From assembly GCA_031262705.1 (NCBI GenBank), contig JAISHD010000049.1:1-33117 (forward strand): a stretch of 33,117 bases of DNA, in the 5' to 3' direction. Shown here in pieces: positions 3,011-17,198 of the stretch. The notes beneath the pieces are model-generated. The model was not told where the DNA came from, made no database searches, and saw nothing but the letters and a program-made list of their open reading frames with translations. Source of the stretch: Methanocalculaceae archaeon (lineage in GTDB: Archaea; Halobacteriota; Methanomicrobia; Methanomicrobiales; Methanocorpusculaceae). The position numbers and the translations under genes are program-made. How positions within the stretch are numbered: position 1 is the stretch's first letter; every line of letters starts with the position of its first letter.

Positions 3011-3896
3011 AGTGAGAAAGCACCTCCCGCAGTTTGTCGGTCATTTCAGGGGACAATGAGTCCAGAGGCAGCCGGACATTTCCTGAGGCAACAAGTCCGC
3101 GGATCTCTGCAGCACGCTTGACCGGAACAGGGTTTACCTCCATGAACATCGCTTTGGACAGTTCCATCAGTTCATAGTGAATTTTGCGTGCGCCGTCCAT
3201 GTCGCCTTTTACAAAGGCGTTATACATGGCAACCATACGTTTCGGCTCAATGTTTGCGGTAACGGAGATGCAGCCCTGACCACCGATGGAAAGCACAGGC
3301 AGCATCAGCGAATCATCACCTGAGGTGAGGACAAACGGATACTCGCGTTCCACACCTTCGAGGCCGTGGATGATGGCCATCATCTGATCGATGTTGCCAC
3401 TTGCTTCTTTGACGGCGACGATGTTGGGGATTGTTTTTGCCATCTCAACAATGAGGTCAGGCGGCAGGTTCTGGCTTGTTCGGCCGGGGATGTTGTACAC
3501 CACAACGGGAAGACCGACATCGGCGACTTTTTTGTAGTGCTTGAGAAGACCGCTTCTGTTTGGTTTATTGTAGTAAGGGCTGATCAGGAGGGCACCATCC
3601 GCTCCGGCAATTTTTGCGGCGCGGGTCATGAGAAGTGCTTCTTCGGTGTTATTGGATCCGGTTCCGGCAATAACGGGTATGCGGTTGTTTGCGGCAGACA
3701 CAACCTCTTCAATGACACGGATGTGCTCAGCATGCGTCATCGTGGCAGATTCACCGGTTGAGCCGCAGGGCAGAAGACCGTGAACGCCGCCGGAGATTAC
3801 ATGCTCAATACAGCTCCGAAGTCCCTCGATATCAAGGGACTGTGAGGCATCCTCACGGAACGGAGTGATGAGTGCAGGAATCACACCTTCGAACAT
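3003..3896 (-). CDS. dapA: 4-hydroxy-tetrahydrodipicolinate synthase
   Basis: A 297-residue class I aldolase-type enzyme that condenses pyruvate with aspartate semialdehyde. Visible active-site residues are the GSTGES loop (Thr47), Tyr134 in VVVYNIPGR, and the Schiff-base lysine Lys163 in AVKEASGN. I start it at the ATG at 3896 ([13 protein letters not shown]), which matches the normal N-terminus of the family. The open frame continues upstream for 31 residues with no family resemblance. A TATA-like ATTTTTATTC near 4036-4046 would give a leader of roughly 120 bases. The 260-base gap upstream holds no gene. dapB overlaps its end. Confidence 0.97.
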
Positions 3897-8511: not shown

Positions 8512-9255
8512 TTAGTCTGCCTCAATTCTCGGGGCAAGCAGATAGCCGATCTTTCCTTTGCCGTCTGCATAGACAAAGGAGAACTGTACCGGATGGTCGT
8601 TGCCGAGCCGGATCTGTACCTTGTCGGCTCTGCTGCTGGATTTGCCCATGTCCTTCAGGTAGTCAAGGGAGAAAAGGGAACGTGCCGCGGCGCAGGAGAT
8701 ATAATGGACATCGTCACCTGCAAGTTCGCGTTTGATTCTGTCGCTGTCACCTTCGGCATTCAGGGTGAAGACCTGGGTCTCCGGATTTACGGATAAGGAG
8801 ATCTTGTCAGAGACCATTGCAGCGGCCTTGATTGCATCGTAGAACATCGAACCTGCAAGTTCAAAGGTTGCGGGAAGGTCAAGGTTCGGCGCGTTCGGAT
8901 CCTTTCTGATGGTCTTCGTGTCAAGCAGGGTTATGGAGTATTCATATCCGCCGAAACTGATCTTCAGCTTTTTTCCAGTCTCATCAAGTTCAAGTGCAAC
9001 GGAGTCAGTCTTACCGATCATGCCCATCATTGCCCGGATCTTTTCAATGTCAAGACCAAGCTCTACAGGTTCTGCTGCATAGGTGGAAAATGCACCGGCT
9101 TCAAGCTCCAGGGATACCATGGCAACGTTGGAGGTATCAACCGTGATTGTGCGGATGCCGCGCTCATCGACATGAAGTCGGCATTCGTTTACCAGTGCAG
9201 AGACAGCGTCGATCGTCTCCCGGAAAATATCTGCATCTATTGTTGCTTTTAACAT
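8512..9255 (-). CDS. pcn: DNA polymerase sliding clamp PCNA
   Basis: A 247-residue PCNA that forms a ring around DNA and tethers polymerase, FEN1, ligase and other factors. The start at 9255 (MLKATIDADIFRETIDAV) gives the usual N-terminus; a slightly earlier in-frame ATG only adds MCQGVLQ. Family signs are the LDxEKI segment (DIEKIRAMM), the acidic interdomain region, and the C-terminal SFVYADGKGKIGYLLAPRIE, where the KIGYLLAPR part ends the clamp. It is the first gene of the pcn-priL operon and has a TATA region at 9313-9333. The fen1 product in this window carries a matching clamp-binding tail. Confidence 0.96.
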   Translation of the reverse strand: MLKATIDADIFRETIDAVSALVNECRLHVDERGIRTITVDTSNVAMVSLELEAGAFSTYAAEPVELGLDIEKIRAMMGMIGKTDSVALELDETGKKLKISFGGYEYSITLLDTKTIRKDPNAPNLDLPATFELAGSMFYDAIKAAAMVSDKISLSVNPETQVFTLNAEGDSDRIKRELAGDDVHYISCAAARSLFSLDYLKDMGKSSSRADKVQIRLGNDHPVQFSFVYADGKGKIGYLLAPRIEAD

Positions 9256-9312
9256 CTGTAATACCCCTTGACACACCCGAACATGCCAGTGTGACGGTCG
9301 TTAATAATACTG

Positions 9313-9333
9313 TACTTATACACCGTATAAATT
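9313..9333 (-). promoter_or_regulatory. pcn promoter with a perfect dyad
   Basis: Two TATA-like elements (TTTATACGG and GTATAAGTA on the minus strand) lie 60-80 bases upstream of the pcn start codon. They overlap a perfect inverted repeat, TTATAC-ACC-GTATAA, at 9316-9330. The dyad could be a regulator binding site or simply two overlapping TATA boxes. The implied leader is about 45 bases. Confidence 0.5.
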
Positions 9334-9614
9334 TATATCATTGCCGCTGTTTTCGGTGTTGCTCCAAACGTCCATACTTGTTCATAAAGTCGGATCGGAT
9401 TTAAATTCAGTTGCCCGAAATTCCTCGATGCATGGCTTTACTTCGAGTAACCACGTGCCGAAGAACTTCGAAGACGGAAATCAGAGTTATTCGGAAAATA
9501 TTTGCCCATACAGTAAGAGAGTCTTCAGATATTTGGTGCAAAAACTCTGTTTACGGGGAATTTCATCGACAAATCAAAAAAATATTTAGAAGAATAACCC
9601 GCGATCCAAAGAAA
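9334..9614. other. AT-rich intergenic region between tbp and pcn
   Basis: About 280 bases of noticeably lower GC content than the surrounding genes. Short open frames on the plus strand (9341-9589 and 9411-9713) have no recognisable family, no ribosome binding site and run into the antisense of tbp. Seven A at 9576-9582 make a T7 tract that probably ends tbp transcription. Nothing else was recognised here. Confidence 0.55.
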
Positions 9615-10175
9615 TCAGAGCATCTTCATATCGGAGAGATCTTTGTAAATCTTCTGAACAGCCCGCTTTGCATCCTCAGGAACCTTACCGCCGGTGATGA
9701 TCAGTTTTCCTGAACCAAACAGCAGGACAACAACCTTCGGATCGTCCAGCCGATAGACAAGACCAGGGAACTGCTCCGGTTCATACTCGATCTTGTCGAG
9801 GTTAAAACTCATTGCGATCTTGTTGAGATTGATGCGCGAGCCGAGATCTGCGGAGGTCACAATATTCTGAATACTGTAGGTAGGATTGTCCACAATCTCG
9901 ATATTGAGGTCGCGGAGGAGGCCTACCAGATACTCAAGCCCTTTGTTGAGACTGTCGATGCTTTTTGCACCGGTAAGCACAACCTTACCCGATCCGAACA
10001 CCAGTGCGGCAATTTTTGGGTTCTGCATCCGCAGAACAACACCCGGAAACCGCTGTTTATTGTATTCTGCGCCGGGGATCTGCGCTGCGAGAACGAGGAG
10101 ATCCAGTTTATCATTCACCTTTGTGGATGCAACCACATTTTCGATCTTCAATGATTCATCGGGCAGGCCTGACAT
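9615..10175 (-). CDS. tbp: TATA-box-binding protein
   Basis: A 186-residue archaeal TBP, the factor that binds the promoter TATA box and recruits TFB and RNA polymerase. It consists of two direct repeats of about 90 residues. The matching segments are visible: IENVVAS / IQNIVTS, FPGVVLRM / FPGLVYRL, and PKIAALVFGSGKVVLTGAK / PKVVVLLFGSGKLIITGGK. The basic or acidic tail is very short (SDMKML). The start codon lies about 25 bases after a strong TATA box, so the message is probably leaderless. Confidence 0.97.
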   Translation of the reverse strand: MSGLPDESLKIENVVASTKVNDKLDLLVLAAQIPGAEYNKQRFPGVVLRMQNPKIAALVFGSGKVVLTGAKSIDSLNKGLEYLVGLLRDLNIEIVDNPTYSIQNIVTSADLGSRINLNKIAMSFNLDKIEYEPEQFPGLVYRLDDPKVVVLLFGSGKLIITGGKVPEDAKRAVQKIYKDLSDMKML

Positions 10176-10195
10176 ATTTATATCTAAAACAGGTA

Positions 10196-10207
10196 ACTAT
10201 ATAAAAA
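10196..10207 (-). promoter_or_regulatory. TATA box of tbp
   Basis: The minus strand reads GTTTTTATATAGTT here, about 22-32 bases before the tbp start codon. With the usual archaeal spacing, transcription would begin at or within a few bases of the ATG. Confidence 0.6.
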
Positions 10208-10268
10208 CTCGGTTGGGATCGTAGAAAAATCAGGTGGGAGATTCACCTCTCCCCAGCTGCATTCCGAT

Positions 10269-10589
10269 TCAATCGTATTCACGCCAGGTGTGTTTGCATT
10301 TGGTGCAGCGGAAGAACCTGACCTCGGATTCATCAGCACTACGAAGCTGACGAAGCCACCACTCGGCAATTCCATGTCCGCAGTTCGGGCATTTGACGGT
10401 GCAGGTAGGTTTTGTCTCGATTTCCATATCATCATCAACGATAAGAATGTCATTCTCCTGCATGTAAGCGACTTTTTTCATCTGTTCCTTCTCTGCCGAG
10501 CTGATCTCCTCTGCATACCCGCACTTTGCACAGATCAGTTTGCCGTCTTTAGACTTCATCAATTTCCCGCATTTCGGACAGAACATCAT
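10269..10589 (-). CDS. tfs: Transcription factor S (TFIIS-like RNA cleavage factor)
   Basis: A 106-residue archaeal TFS, which enters the RNA polymerase channel and stimulates cleavage of backtracked transcripts. The N-terminal zinc ribbon uses CPKCG (from Cys5) and CAKCG. The C-terminal ribbon uses CPNCG and CTKC, with the catalytic acidic pair in RSADESEVRFF and the terminal HTWREY typical of the family. The first codons are ATG ATG. A TATA element lies about 25 bases upstream and there is no ribosome binding site, so the message is likely leaderless. It lies downstream of a possible 47-residue gene and upstream of tbp. Confidence 0.95.
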   Translation of the reverse strand: MMFCPKCGKLMKSKDGKLICAKCGYAEEISSAEKEQMKKVAYMQENDILIVDDDMEIETKPTCTVKCPNCGHGIAEWWLRQLRSADESEVRFFRCTKCKHTWREYD

Positions 10590-10601
10590 AGACTTAAATA
10601 T

Positions 10602-10745
10602 TTATTTTGAAACCTTATATACTCTGATCATAACGGGCCGCAAATCCTCCAACGGTGTTGCCTTCGGCCTGCGCTCAGTGTTTTCTGTGAGAGACAGGAT
10701 GTTATGGGCAACACTTCTCCCAACAAAACCCTCTTTATCGATCAC
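10602..10745 (-). CDS. Possible 47-residue protein upstream of tfs
   Basis: An open frame on the minus strand that ends in a TAA 12 bases before tfs. It could start at a GTG at 10745 and reads roughly (M)IDKEGFVGRSVAHNILSLTENT and on to RPVMIRVYKVSK. The frame remains open for seven more codons upstream (ELITLFA), without an ATG or TTG. Amino-acid and codon composition look protein-like, which is unusual for an intergenic stretch. Against it: no clear ribosome binding site, a non-ATG start, and the tfs/artA TATA element lies inside it. The alternative is that this stretch is only the artA leader. Confidence 0.3.
   Translation of the reverse strand: MIDKEGFVGRSVAHNILSLTENTERRPKATPLEDLRPVMIRVYKVSK
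10614..10622. promoter_or_regulatory. Shared TATA element between tfs and archaeosortase genes
   Basis: The sequence TTATATACT reads as a TATA box on both strands. On the minus strand it is about 25 bases from the tfs start. On the plus strand it would start an archaeosortase transcript with a leader of about 120 bases. Confidence 0.45.
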
Positions 10746-10768
10746 GGCAAACAGTGTAATCAGTTCTT

Positions 10769-11632
10769 ATGCTGGAGCAGTTGATTGAAACCGTTGTCAT
10801 CCTTTCCTGTATTGCATTCCTACTGTTTCTGATTCCGGGAAGGCATCAGAAGTATGTGGCGAGTATCGGATGGGTTGCAATGGAAGCAGTGCTCCTTCTG
10901 ATGTTTCCCCACTTCTTTGAGGAGGGAAATTTTGTCTATCCAACAATTGCAATCGCTGTTCTGCCCTGTATTTACATCACTGTTAAACGGCTGTTCATGG
11001 ACGATTACTATATCCGCCGCCTGACGTATGCCGCATCTATTGCGTATCTGATCTATGCACCGTTCGCGTTCATACCGGCGCTCGGAAACTGGCTGATCAG
11101 TGTGGTCGTGGATCTGGTAGCAATTGTTCTCACCGCAATCGGAACACCCTATACCATGTCGGCCTGGAACATCTTCATGGGAGAGATATTGCCGGGCAAC
11201 ACCTTCGGATTTCAGGTTGAGGTGATTCTTGGATGTACCGGTATTCAGGCGATTGCCATTCTCCTCGGTGTTGTGGCTATCATTCCATCAAGCTGGAAGA
11301 GAAAACTCGGTCTGTTCTTTTTAGTAACTATACCGATCTTTGCGGTGAACATTTTCCGCAACGCATATGTGGTAACCGCATACACACAGCAGTGGTATCC
11401 CTGGTTCCAGGAATGGTTCCCGGAACCGGAGATGTACGGCTATGCGAGTTTCTTCTGGGCACACAATGTGTTCTGTGAACTCCTCGCAGTTGTCGTGCTG
11501 ATTGGTATTGCCTATCTGCTCTTCAAACTTAATCCGACGATGGTTACGACGCTGCGCGACATCGGGGTCGTGTACTATGATGAGCTGATTGCAATGCGCG
11601 ACCGGATCTTCGGCAGAAAATCAGCCGAATAA
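10769..11632 (+). CDS. artA: Archaeosortase A, membrane transpeptidase
   Basis: A 287-residue polytopic membrane protein of the exosortase/archaeosortase family. Such enzymes cut the PGF-CTERM tail of surface proteins such as the S-layer glycoprotein and attach a lipid anchor. The three active-site residues of the family can be seen: Cys156 in LGCTGIQ, Arg197 in NIFRNAY, and His232 in FFWAHNVFCE. At least seven hydrophobic segments surround them, and the C-terminal 40 residues are cytoplasmic and charged. No PGF-CTERM substrate is encoded in the visible window, as expected for an enzyme serving many scattered substrates. A T9 run follows the gene. Confidence 0.92.
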   Translation: MLEQLIETVVILSCIAFLLFLIPGRHQKYVASIGWVAMEAVLLLMFPHFFEEGNFVYPTIAIAVLPCIYITVKRLFMDDYYIRRLTYAASIAYLIYAPFAFIPALGNWLISVVVDLVAIVLTAIGTPYTMSAWNIFMGEILPGNTFGFQVEVILGCTGIQAIAILLGVVAIIPSSWKRKLGLFFLVTIPIFAVNIFRNAYVVTAYTQQWYPWFQEWFPEPEMYGYASFFWAHNVFCELLAVVVLIGIAYLLFKLNPTMVTTLRDIGVVYYDELIAMRDRIFGRKSAE

Positions 11633-11634
11633 TC

Positions 11635-11643
11635 TTTTTTTTT
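11635..11643 (+). terminator. T9 tract between artA and the HIT gene
   Basis: Nine T in a row begin two bases after the archaeosortase stop codon and end directly against the ATG of the HIT gene. It can act as an oligo-T terminator for artA. If the two genes are co-transcribed, the HIT start has a U-rich leader and no ribosome binding site. Confidence 0.45.
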
Positions 11644-12027
11644 ATGACAGCCTGTCCCTTCTGCAATCCTGATGAAGTTCTTCTGGAAAATGATCTGGCG
11701 TTTGCCAAGTATGATCTCTATCCGGTCTCTCCCGGCCATCTGCTGGTAATTCCCAAGCGGCATGCTGCATCCTGGTTTGATCTCACACCAGCAGAGCAGG
11801 CGGCGGTTCTTGCGCTTGTAACCCTGACAAAAGATCTGCTGGATGAAACATATGCACCCGACGGCTACAATCTCGGTGTGAACTGCGGGGAGGCAGCAGG
11901 CCAGACGGTGATGCATGTTCATCTGCATGTAATTCCGCGCTATACCGGGGACGTGCCGAATCCCCGTGGCGGAATCCGGGCGGTGATTGCGGCAAAACAG
12001 GATTATACGAACAGGATCAGACGTTAG
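11644..12027 (+). CDS. HIT family nucleotide hydrolase/transferase
   Basis: A 127-residue histidine-triad protein. The triad HVHLHVIPR is at residues 91-99, with His93 as the expected nucleophile. The N-terminal CPFC pair (4-7) and His40 probably bind zinc as in Hint/Fhit-like proteins. Members cleave the phosphate link of AMP-amino, dinucleoside polyphosphate or similar compounds. The sequence does not fix the substrate. Its stop codon overlaps the stop codon of the converging fen1 gene. Confidence 0.92.
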
Positions 12028-13025
12028 AACCAGGAGTCGAGAGTTGCCTGACCCTTTTTTGCGCCGAGACGCTCAAGTCCTGCGGACACCCGCTCCTCTG
12101 AGAAGCCATGCTGTTCGCAGAGAATTTCAAAAACTTTCTCCTGTACCGGTGCTTTTTTTGCAATGATGTAGTTCTTTTCCACCGGCGGGTCAAGGAAGTA
12201 GCGGATAAGTTCCTCCGGATCTGCAGCGTTTTCTGATTCAGTGATGCGTTCGGCGAACTTTCCTTCGCGGACGATCTTTACCGCGGTTTTGGGACCGACA
12301 CCTTTTACACCGCTGTTGTAGTCGGTACCGATAAGAAGCGCTGCTGCAATCAGCTCAACCTGCGTCATTTCCAGAGCGTTCAGGACTTCTTCAAGGATTA
12401 GCCGTTCCGGATAGACCGACACATACTTTCCGTGCATGCGGCGTTTGCCGGAGACGGTGAGATTACGGAGAAGCTTCGGCGTTCCAAACAGCAACGCGTC
12501 GTAATCCTGCGACACCGCGTAGGTGACATCTCCTGAGGCGGCCATATATGCGGACTGGGCCTCTCCTTCCTCGGGAGCCTGAATCCAGGGAATGCCAAGA
12601 GCCGTCAGAAGTTCCTTGGAGGAGTCGGTGATAAAAGCATCAACCTTTGAGGAGGCCATTGCATACTTGCGTGCGGCGTCCTCGTCCCCTTCTTTTACGG
12701 CGCGTTCCCAGGATTCTTTTGCGTTTTCGCGAATGACGCGTCGTTCGGCAAGGGTTGCTTCCTTAAATACCGGCGGTTTTCCGTCAAACACGTACACGGG
12801 AGTGATATTTTTTTCCACAAGATTTGCAGTACGGAACAGGAGACCACTCAAGTGGGACGTGATGCGGCCTTCGTCATCCATCAGCGGTGTTCCATCCGGC
12901 TGACGAATACCGCTTAAAAACTGGTACAGGGCATTGTATGCATCGATGGCCGCAGTACCTCCAAGCTGATCCCATGCAAGGGATTCCTTATAATCCGCAA
13001 TGAGCGGCCGCAGCGCAACACCCAT
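12024..13025 (-). CDS. fen: Flap endonuclease 1
   Basis: A 333-residue structure-specific nuclease that removes 5' flaps from Okazaki fragments and takes part in base excision repair. The start at 13025 gives MGVALRPLI; the N-terminal Gly after Met is functionally important in the family. Acidic metal ligands are visible in VFDGKPP, the EGEAQ motif ([13 protein letters not shown]), [10 protein letters not shown] and [18 protein letters not shown], the last also containing the helix-hairpin-helix. The C-terminus QATLDSWF is a PCNA-interacting peptide. A membrane coiled-coil gene ends 10 bases upstream and probably shares the transcript. Confidence 0.96.
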
Positions 13026-13035
13026 GTTTTTTTTC

Positions 13036-13365
13036 CTACCGGTACATTCTGCTTTTGATGCTCTCAACTGCCTCAACAACCTTCTGCGAGGTTGCATCCT
13101 GCCTCTGGATCATCTGACGGCCGAGGTCTTCAAGGTTGCTGCGCATGATCCGTTCACGTGCCGCGCTCTGCTCCTCAAGTCGGCGGAGACGGAAAAGAAT
13201 CGAGAGCAGCAGCAGGCCCACAGAGATAATCAGCAGTTCAACCCCAATTGCGACAATAGCGTCCTGCCAGAGCCGGATAATGATAGCAAGACCGGATACT
13301 GCCATGACAATTACCAGCAGAACTTCCAGCATGATTCCCGGAAGGCTTTCACGACGAACATTCAT
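13036..13365 (-). CDS. Small membrane protein with C-terminal coiled coil
   Basis: A 109-residue protein with no family I can name. Two hydrophobic segments (about residues 10-30 and 37-58) are followed by a long charged helix rich in Arg, Glu and Gln ([15 protein letters not shown] and on), typical of a cytoplasmic coiled coil. It ends 10 bases before fen1, so the two are likely in one operon, although nothing in the protein suggests a DNA role. It is divergent from the presenilin-like gene across 42 bases. Confidence 0.8.
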
Positions 13366-13407: not shown

Positions 13408-14329
13408 ATGAGTAAATTTTCTGTCCGTTCTCTTGTGCCGTACTCCGGCATGCTCCTCCTGATGCTTGCGACCGGGATACTGTCGCTTCTGCTGATCTAC
13501 CCAGTTACGCAGGCAGGACTTGGTGCATTTGAGGATCCGGATTCGATCGCAAATCCGTTTGTGTTCCTGTTTATTATGCTCGTGTTCACTGCGCTCCTTT
13601 TACTTTTGATTAAGTGGAAAGCGCAAACGATTATCAGCGCAATTATCGGTATCTGTCTGGCACTGGTAATCTATTATGTCGTCTCTTCGCTGATATTTTC
13701 CTATGTCCCGACGCTTCCGGCGTCGTTTATCGGTATTGCCGCTGCGATGATCGTGATTCTGCTGCTCTGGTACCGGCCGGAGTGGTATGTGATCAATGTT
13801 TCGGGGATTCTTATCTCGGCAGGCTGTGCGGCGATCTTCGGCATTTCACTTTCGATTATTCCCGGTACTGATTCTTTTGATTCTGCTGATTGTGTATGAT
13901 GCGGTTTCGGTGCACCGGACAAAGCATATGCTGACGCTGGCAGACGGAGTTCTCCGTCAGAAAATGCCGATTATGTTTATTGTTCCTAAAACCCGCAGTT
14001 ACTCCTACCGGAGTTCCGGGTTTTCCCTGCAGGACAAAAAAGAGGAACGTGGTGCCTACATGATTGGGATGGGAGACATGATCATGCCGGCAATTCTTGT
14101 GGTTTCCGCACAGGTGTATGCGGGCGGCGAGGGCATTCTCTCAGTGGCAGGTGTTGCGCTTCCCGCACTTGGTGCCATGATCGGCGGTATTGTTGGTCTG
14201 TGTTCGCTGATGATCCCCTTAAACTCCGGAAAACCGCAACCGGGCCTTCCGTATATTAACGCAGGAGCCATCATCGGTTTCCTGATCTGCTGTGCAGTAA
14301 CCGGTTCTTGGGCCTGGGTCGGATTCTGA
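13408..14329 (+). pseudogene. Presenilin/SPP-type intramembrane aspartyl protease, split by a +1 frameshift
   Basis: Two overlapping frames join into one protein. The first runs from the ATG at 13408 to a TGA at 13897-13899; the second continues to 14329. Dropping one C from the CCC at 13861-13863 fuses them into 306 residues, close to the roughly 300 of archaeal presenilin homologues. The joined protein has every hallmark: six or so N-terminal membrane segments, the catalytic VYDAVS (Asp164), the second catalytic GMGD (Asp223) and the PAL motif (252-254). Such proteases cut substrates within the membrane. As written, translation would stop 11 codons after the shift, before either catalytic residue. 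It may be a true mutation, a programmed +1 shift or a sequencing error. Confidence 0.9.
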
Positions 14330-14389: not shown

Positions 14390-14461
14390 GCATCGATAGT
14401 GTAGTGGTTATCACTAGGCGTTGCCAACGCCTAAACTCGGGTTCGAGTCCCGGTCGATGCA
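14390..14461 (+). tRNA. tRNA-Gly (anticodon GCC)
   Basis: A complete 72-base cloverleaf can be drawn by hand. The acceptor stem pairs GCATCGA with TCGATGC, with A as discriminator base. The D arm closes with GTG/CAC, the anticodon stem AGGCG/CGCCT holds the loop TTGCCAA (anticodon GCC), and the T arm has the TTCGAGT loop. No intron is present and CCA is not encoded. A TATA box stands upstream and a T-rich run (TTCTTTTTCC) follows. Confidence 0.95.
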
Positions 14462-14572
14462 CTTCTTTTTCCGATTTCTGTTGTGACAGTTCCGAATGTA
14501 TTTCTGCTGAGTTGTTTCGGAATGCAGCAATACGTTTTCAGTATTACAAAGGCGTCTGCCCAAGAAAATATA

Positions 14573-14605: not shown

Positions 14606-15799
14606 TCATCCCCGACGCAGGAAGAGCATCGGGAACCTGACCACAAGCCAGGGATTGCTCTTCAGCATCGCTGCAAGAACAGATGGAATCGTCACCTCGT
14701 CCAGATGCATATCCGGGACGGATCCAATCACTGCATTCAGCAGGGAATCATCCATCCGGAAGAACACCTCTTTGATCAGATACGAGCGTGACAGGAACGT
14801 CCCCATACGGCTCTGGCGCCAGGTCCGCTCATAGACCATCAGTGCCTGCTTGGAGCAGTCTCCCAAGGCAACTGCATCCGCTGCCGTCTCACCGGCAAGA
14901 CGCCCCGAATACAGCGCCTGATAGATGCCCCCGCCAGTGAACGGATCAGAAAGCCGTGCAGCATCCCCGCAGATGATCAGGTTGTCTGCAACCGTGGACT
15001 CAAGCGGTTTGCAGGTGGAGACACCGCCCGCGATCAGTTCCGTGATCTTACCGTCCGGGAAGTTCTCCTCCATAAACCGATCCAAGTAATCCTTCGCCCG
15101 GTGACCGTCGCCGGACTTTGTCCCGGGGATCCCTATGCCGATGTTTGCACAGCGCTGACCTTTGGAAAATATCCAGATGTATCCATGCGGGCTGGACGTA
15201 TTGCCCCAGTAAAAGACATTCGTCTCCGGCTCAATATCAATGCCGGTAACCAGATACTGCACACAGGAGTCAAGATCGGCAAGCGGCACAGTGGTATTGA
15301 TGCCGGCAAGTTTTCCAAACTTCGACTCCACACCATCAGCCGCAATCACAACTTTTGCACGGATTTCACAGGTCTTTCCATGCTGATGGATTATTACACC
15401 CGCAAGTCTGCCCCCTTCCATGAAAGGGACAGCCCGCGCATGGACCAGAACATCTGCGCCCGCATCGGCTGCTTTCCTTGCCAGATCACGATCAAAGATT
15501 TTCCGATCCAAGGTATAGCCAAGCACCTCATTCCCGGTCTTTCCGGCAATGGTAAAACTGCTTTTGTCCGGCGCAATGAACCGGGCTTTCCTGATAACCG
15601 TAGAAACCCATTTCGGATCCGGATCCATGAACTCGGCAAGGTCTCCGGTTACAATGCCCTCGGCACACCGTACCGGAACACCGATTGCGGGCCGTTTTTC
15701 AACCAGCAGAACCGAGATCCCGCGAACGGCAGCAGCATGTGCCGCCATGGAACCCGCAGGTCCTGCACCTACAACAACAACATCATACGCTTCTTTCAT
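14606..15799 (-). CDS. Geranylgeranyl reductase family FAD protein, copy 1
   Basis: A 397-residue flavoprotein of the digeranylgeranylglycerophospholipid reductase family, which saturates the isoprenoid chains of archaeal membrane lipids. The FAD-binding GAGPAG is at residues 11-16, the CAEGI cysteine at 45, an AADGVESK segment near 153-160, and the second FAD motif [14 protein letters not shown] at 278-291. The substrate-channel motif reads YIWIFSKG (207-214), with Ser where the neighbouring paralogue has Pro. It starts 17 bases after copy 2 and shares its N-terminal MKEAYD, so the two arose by tandem duplication and belong to one operon with the ferredoxin gene. Confidence 0.9.
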
Positions 15800-15816
15800 C
15801 GTACCGAAAAAAGAGA

Positions 15817-17010
15817 TTAGAGTGCTTTGAGGAGATGCGGCAGTTCAAGAGCCAGCCACGGGTTCGCCTTAAAGATTGCAAGCACCAGCTTTTTCACGCT
15901 CAGATCCTCAATGCTGAGATCCGACATGGAGTGAACAATCGAGTTCAGTTTCTTGTCATCCATCTTGATGAACGACTCTTTGACCGCATAATTGCGTGCA
16001 AGTGTTTTGCCGACCGGTCCCTCACGCCAAGTCTTGTCATAGACCATCAGGGCTTTCTTCGATGTGTCGCCGTTCTTAATCGCGGTTGCCGCAACTTTGC
16101 CGGCGAGATCGCCGGTGTACATCGCATTGTAGATGCCACCGCCGGTGATCGGATCAGAAATCCGTGCTGCATCCCCCACAATCAGCAGATTGTCTGCAAC
16201 CGTGCATTCAAGCGGCCTGCAGACGGAGACACCGCCCACCATAAGTTCGGTGATCTTTGCGTTTGGGAACTCCTTTGCCATAAACCGGTCAAGGTAATCC
16301 TTTGCACGGTGACCTTCACCGGACTTTGTTCCGGCAATGCCGATGCCGATGTTTGCACAACGCGGGCCTTTCGGGAAGATCCAGATGTAGCCCCACGGAC
16401 ATGCCTCGTTGGAGACATAAAACACGTTTGCCTTCGGGTCAATATCGATGTCATTGACGAGATACTGGGCACAGGTCTCAAGCTCCCAGAGCGGCACGGT
16501 TGTATCAATTCCGGCCCACTTTGCAAACTTCGACTCCACACCGTCAGCTGCAATCACGACTTTTGCACGGACTTCGTAGGTCTTTCCATGCTGGTGGATG
16601 ACAGCTCCCTGCAGTTTGCCGTCGATCATGATCGGTGCGGATGCACGTGCATGCACCTGAATCTCTGCACCCGCTTCTGCGGCACGCCAGACGAGTTCAC
16701 GGTCAAACATCTTGCGGTCCAGAACGTATCCGACCTTTCCTCCGGTCGCTTCGCCGCCAATGGTGAATCTTGTACCGTCCGGGCCGACAAGCACCGCACG
16801 CTCAATGTCAGTTGAGACCCATTTCGGATCTGCTTCGATAAACTCAGCAAGCGCGCCTTTCCCGATACCCTCCGCACAGCGGACCGGGGCACCGATTGCA
16901 GGCCGCTTTTCAACCAGCAGGACTGAAAGACCTGCTTCAGCTGCTGCCTTTGCCGCAAGAGCTCCTCCCGGACCTCCTCCAACAACCAGAATGTCGTAAG
17001 CCTCCTTCAT
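15817..17010 (-). CDS. Geranylgeranyl reductase family FAD protein, copy 2
   Basis: A 397-residue paralogue of the preceding entry. It has GGGPGG at 11-16, CAEGI at 45, the full [17 protein letters not shown] motif, and [14 protein letters not shown]. The ATG at 17010 overlaps the ferredoxin stop as ATGA and is preceded by GGTGGAG, so I prefer it to the ATG four codons earlier. The FPKG form is the canonical one, making this the better candidate for the main lipid reductase. In Methanosarcina acetivorans a geranylgeranyl reductase is known to need an adjacent ferredoxin to give fully saturated archaeol; the same gene order here suggests the same electron supply. Confidence 0.93.
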
Positions 17011-17198
17011 TTCTCCACCCATTCAATAGCCCCGAGAGGACAAACAGTCGAACAGATTTTGCATTTGTCCTTGCAGGTCTCTGTATCAACAGTAAGATAC
17101 GCGTCGATTAACTCAAGCGAACCCTGCGGGCAGACTGACACACATGCCCCGCAGTAGCCGCAAACGTCTCTGCGAATATTGATCATTGCAGTACTCAT
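17007..17198 (-). CDS. Ferredoxin for geranylgeranyl reductase
   Basis: A 63-residue ferredoxin with two four-cysteine cluster motifs: [12 protein letters not shown] from Cys13 and [13 protein letters not shown] further on, the latter with an extra residue between the first two cysteines. It is the first gene of the operon and overlaps the reductase start by four bases (ATGA), so the two proteins are made together. Its likely job is to feed low-potential electrons to the reductase. A TATA-like GTTTATGCG is near 17208-17216. An in-frame ATG four codons in gives MINIRRD as an alternative start. Confidence 0.93.

Follow-up and report, generated by a model that had tools for sequence, protein, structure and literature searches.

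The window analyzed here, a stretch of 33,117 nucleotides from contig JAISHD010000049.1 of a Methanocalculaceae archaeon, belongs to a draft genome (G000) of 84 contigs that is 78.9% complete, and it contains a gene of the archaeal presenilin/signal-peptide-peptidase homologue family (PSH) that is read in two frames. The gene begins with an ATG at 13408 on the forward strand and ends at its normal stop codon, a TGA at 14327-14329. It adjoins a segment (8512-13097) carrying genes for the PCNA sliding clamp, TATA-box-binding protein, archaeosortase A, a HIT protein and the flap endonuclease FEN1, and is followed by a tRNA-Gly (GCC) at 14390-14462. Two adjacent genes of the geranylgeranyl reductase family lie in the same orientation at 14606-17022, probably as a result of tandem duplication. 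A search of the window's genome for a further copy of PSH found none.

The frame that opens at 13408 reads through the CCC at 13861-13863 and ends at a premature TGA (13897-13899, +), which shares bases with the codon for the first catalytic aspartate (13898-13900) in the other frame. Its product (13408-13899, +) is a 163-residue stub, in which residues 1-152 are PSH sequence and the final 11 are out of frame. The catalytic half continues in the +1 frame (13862-14329, +) for 155 residues to the normal stop; this frame is open from 13793, and the mechanically called ORF that contains it spans 13796-14329 (+). By the reading frames alone the extra base could be placed anywhere from 13790 to 13899; DNA alignment with the two nearest relatives (93% and 91% identical) pins it to the C run, the only one-base gap across 922 bases, which reads CCC in the window (13861-13863, +) and CC in both relatives. 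The letters spanning the indel, at 13852-13870, are TCGATTATTCCCGGTACTG. In this assembly, then, the gene is not one uninterrupted frame, and joining its two parts across the break gives the full 306-residue protein that had been predicted, with the junction-spanning peptide SLSIIPVLILLILLIVYDAVSVHR.

The family call made in the original prediction, a presenilin-type protease, is borne out by profile matches on either side of the break. NF041679 is matched in register at positions 2-139 by the first part (116 bits) and at positions 134-280 by the second (200 bits, against a cut-off of 125), and this two-part match is far beyond chance. PF06550 (SPP) is likewise matched in register, at positions 3-138 and 133-280, with both halves above the cut-off. 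The catalytic half also aligns residue by residue with residues 145-301 of 4HYC (E 7e-49), a structure of the PSH of Methanoculleus marisnigri (MCMJR1; PDB 4HYC, 4HYD, 4HYG and 4Y6K), which resembles the window protein in family, length, and possession of YD and GxGD. Because both parts match the same profiles in register, and given the 4HYC alignment and the single one-base gap, the split of the gene by one extra base is confirmed. The broken frame leaves the homology unaffected, and judged by its sequence, what the window carries is an ordinary archaeal PSH gene (NF041679, PF06550) in single copy.

Alignment to 4HYC places the YD motif at 13895-13900 (+), within a VYD at 13892-13900, and the GxGD motif, here GMGD with the second catalytic aspartate codon at 14075-14077, at 14066-14077 (+); the roles of both motifs have been described for PSH (PMC2947513). 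A third predicted motif, PAL, does not stand, since the literal P-A-L codons (14162-14170, +) fall within ALPALGAM, opposite APTLGAM of 4HYC and upstream of the last transmembrane segment, and not at the PAL position. Where presenilins and SPPs have PAL, before the last transmembrane segment, the window protein has PYI (14249-14257, +). This is no bar to membership, because the characterized PSH is likewise without PAL: it has PPL at this position, and its authors report no obvious PAL (PMC2947513). MCMJR1 thus differs from the window protein in having PPL rather than PYI, and its frame is not broken by one base as the window gene's is. Homology to PSH would make the rejoined protein a GxGD diaspartyl intramembrane protease (PMC2947513), for which the natural substrates in archaea were not known to the PSH authors (PMC2947513). 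As read, the assembly would encode no active PSH, because neither catalytic aspartate is in the stub, while the second half is missing the N-terminal transmembrane segments and, unless recoded, any obvious start.

The corresponding genes of the two nearest relatives, G024, which we infer to be Methanocorpusculum vombati CW153, and M. petauri MG (G008), are 93% and 91% identical to the window's in DNA over the whole gene, but are one base shorter and consist of a single uninterrupted frame of 306 codons; stub residues 1-152 are 96% identical to the G024 protein. Among 25 Methanocorpusculum genomes, one per species and including the window's own, 18 have PSH whole in one frame, one (G017, 95% identical to the window gene) has a fragment cut off by the end of its contig at base 389 of PSH, no match is found in four incomplete drafts, and the gene is broken in two. 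Eighteen of the 20 complete copies are therefore intact, as are those of all 12 genomes that are at least 90% complete, and the extra base is present in none of the 18 other species. The second broken copy, in G012, resembles that of the window in that a single base is inserted and the draft is one of the less complete, but its break lies elsewhere in the gene: this independent insertion, an extra A in GGTGATAATGATT (L015:2110-2150), occurs just after GxGD. More broadly in the order, PSH was found in 133 of the 135 other genomes searched (at least 90% completeness), in 132 of them in one frame and in one cut by contig ends.

We have also scored the changes specific to G000, relative to G024 and G008, on either side of the indel. 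Upstream there are five silent and three replacement changes; downstream, in the catalytic half, there are 13 silent changes and one replacement, and these give no sign of relaxed selection in that half. The lesion is single, and a very young pseudogene would look alike. The catalytic half thus appears, as predicted, to be intact and without decay, constrained as in the relatives until very recently, which fits either an error or a young mutation that has left no trace.

The reading that we prefer, with about an even chance of being correct, is that the extra C is a private indel without a regulatory role, most likely a base-count error in the draft assembly. In that case the organism itself would have two Cs at this position and would produce the normal 306-residue protease. 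The extra base is in the assembly, is absent from every relative, and has intact coding sequence on both sides, and the draft has a high load of small indels; that it reflects a miscount and not a mutation is what we infer. The near-universal presence of whole PSH genes in the order favors an error, as does the presence of frameshifts in conserved core genes of the same draft. Against it, the change from CC to CCC is not in a long homopolymer, and the two-base indels that are frequent in this draft are atypical of short-read error.

About 1.09 Mb of G000 was aligned, protein to DNA, against 1.20 Mb of G024, and genes were retained only if their differences fell mainly at third codon positions. 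Relative to G024, G000 has 31 small frameshifts and nine nonsense codons in 444 genes, a raw tally in which one event, just before the ATG of the nucleoside-diphosphate kinase gene, is not a broken gene and some others may fall in over-extended starts. The reverse comparison yields five nonsense codons and seven frameshifts, at least two of which are breaks in G000 itself viewed in the opposite direction. G000 thus carries an unusual indel load, in which two-base indels are common. A break at about 9283, in PCNA, was discarded, since it lies upstream of the likely start codon and does not break the gene.

Two of the events affect core genes. In the serine hydroxymethyltransferase gene (glyA; L133, about 3418-3439, G000:C45) two extra Gs in a G run split the gene, which is single-copy, is 97.9% identical to that of G024, and is intact in G024, G008 and G005, with the family present in 14 of 14 control genomes. 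In the archaeal DnaG primase gene (L069, about 2290-2301, G000:C20) a two-base frameshift near the C-terminus replaces the last ∼85 residues. Both breaks look more like errors. Accessory genes make up most of the other named breaks (MFS and AI-2E transporters, PEGA and TPR proteins, TrmB, FecCD and polyphosphate kinase), the labels core and accessory being our own judgement. A chlor_Arch_YYY-family gene (L151, about 48171-48892 of G000:C3; G024 C2:120599-122602) has two frameshifts and a stop, and is a clear pseudogene.

It is because of this three-lesion gene that real gene decay can be said to occur in G000, and the distribution of the remaining breaks bears on the rival account, that a real and very recent private mutation of CC to CCC inactivated PSH as part of an ongoing loss of dispensable genes. 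The frameshifts are not random: only seven of the 31 lie in genes at least 94% identical, which contain half of the codons (P 0.0015), although this bias may be partly circular because decayed genes diverge faster. Since the frameshifts avoid slowly evolving genes and are mostly in accessory ones, and nonsense codons are present, part of the load must be decay, and much of it, possibly including PSH, may be. The independent insertion in G012 is a further point in favor of loss. Opposing it are the near absence of PSH loss from the order, the breakage of glyA and dnaG in the same manner, and the 13 silent changes to one replacement in the catalytic half, which still look selected and because of which any loss must be very young. 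The signals from frameshift and nonsense counts, from gene conservation and from gene type conflict with each other. Because the order rarely breaks PSH, and because both of the broken copies, which differ in the site of the break, come from less complete drafts, we give a base-count error even odds and regard real loss as a serious contender that falls somewhat short of an even chance; all other readings together share a very small remainder.

Sequencing error and very recent loss were two of the three readings originally put forward, and both survive. The third, programmed +1 frameshifting by the ribosome at CCC so as to toggle between a membrane stub and an active protease, is not supported by the sequence, and we consider it most improbable. 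An intact catalytic half and a shift placed just upstream of the first catalytic residue are what such a switch would have; however, the extra base is private to this assembly, being found in no other Methanocorpusculum homologue, and G010 has a CCC codon at the site with its frame intact. The codon after CCC is GGT, an ordinary glycine codon and not a stop, the stop being reached 11 codons later, and folding of the next 120 nt after the site shows no RNA structure above chance (z -0.06). Comparable indels, in their dozens, are spread through unrelated genes of the draft. The established case of programmed shifting in an archaeal chromosomal gene, fucA1 of Saccharolobus solfataricus, resembles the window PSH in that the gene lies in two frames while its relatives are whole, but its shift is -1, at an A-rich slippery site accompanied by rare codons and a putative stem-loop (PMC8211752), whereas the window PSH would need a +1 shift, and neither slippery site nor structure was found for it. 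A +1 event has been reported for a haloarchaeal virus (PMC8211752). Because fucA1 also has full-length homologues in relatives (PMC8211752), intact relatives are strong evidence, though not absolute proof, against programmed shifting. The observation named at the outset as ruling it out, that relatives all have intact frames and no slippery site, is nonetheless what we find, apart from the unrelated indel of G012.

Two further readings deserve mention. The extra C may be real and tolerated, with low-level +1 slippage at CCC yielding a little full-length protease in a lineage that is throttling the enzyme, an idea to which we attach hardly any weight; if it proved true, it would, as far as we know, be the first case of +1 recoding in a chromosomal gene of an archaeon. 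It is just as doubtful that each frame encodes a protein of its own, the two forming a split protease in which internal initiation or stop-start coupling gives rise to the second half, since although the second frame has internal starts at ATG 13796 and GTG 13892 (the latter beside the TGA at 13897), the GTG would remove most of the helix holding the first aspartate, the ATG would add a non-homologous leader, and no split two-frame PSH was found in the genus or order other than the unrelated indel of G012.

As it stands the finding, most likely a base-count error, amounts to a single private indel, seen in an incomplete draft, in a gene of an already known protease family, and matters little; the gene breaks of G000 should not be taken as biology without reads. 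Nearly all well-assembled genomes of the Methanomicrobiales have a whole PSH gene, and because it is kept whole across the order we would argue that it does something important there. If the insertion is real, it would be among the very few losses of PSH in the Methanomicrobiales.
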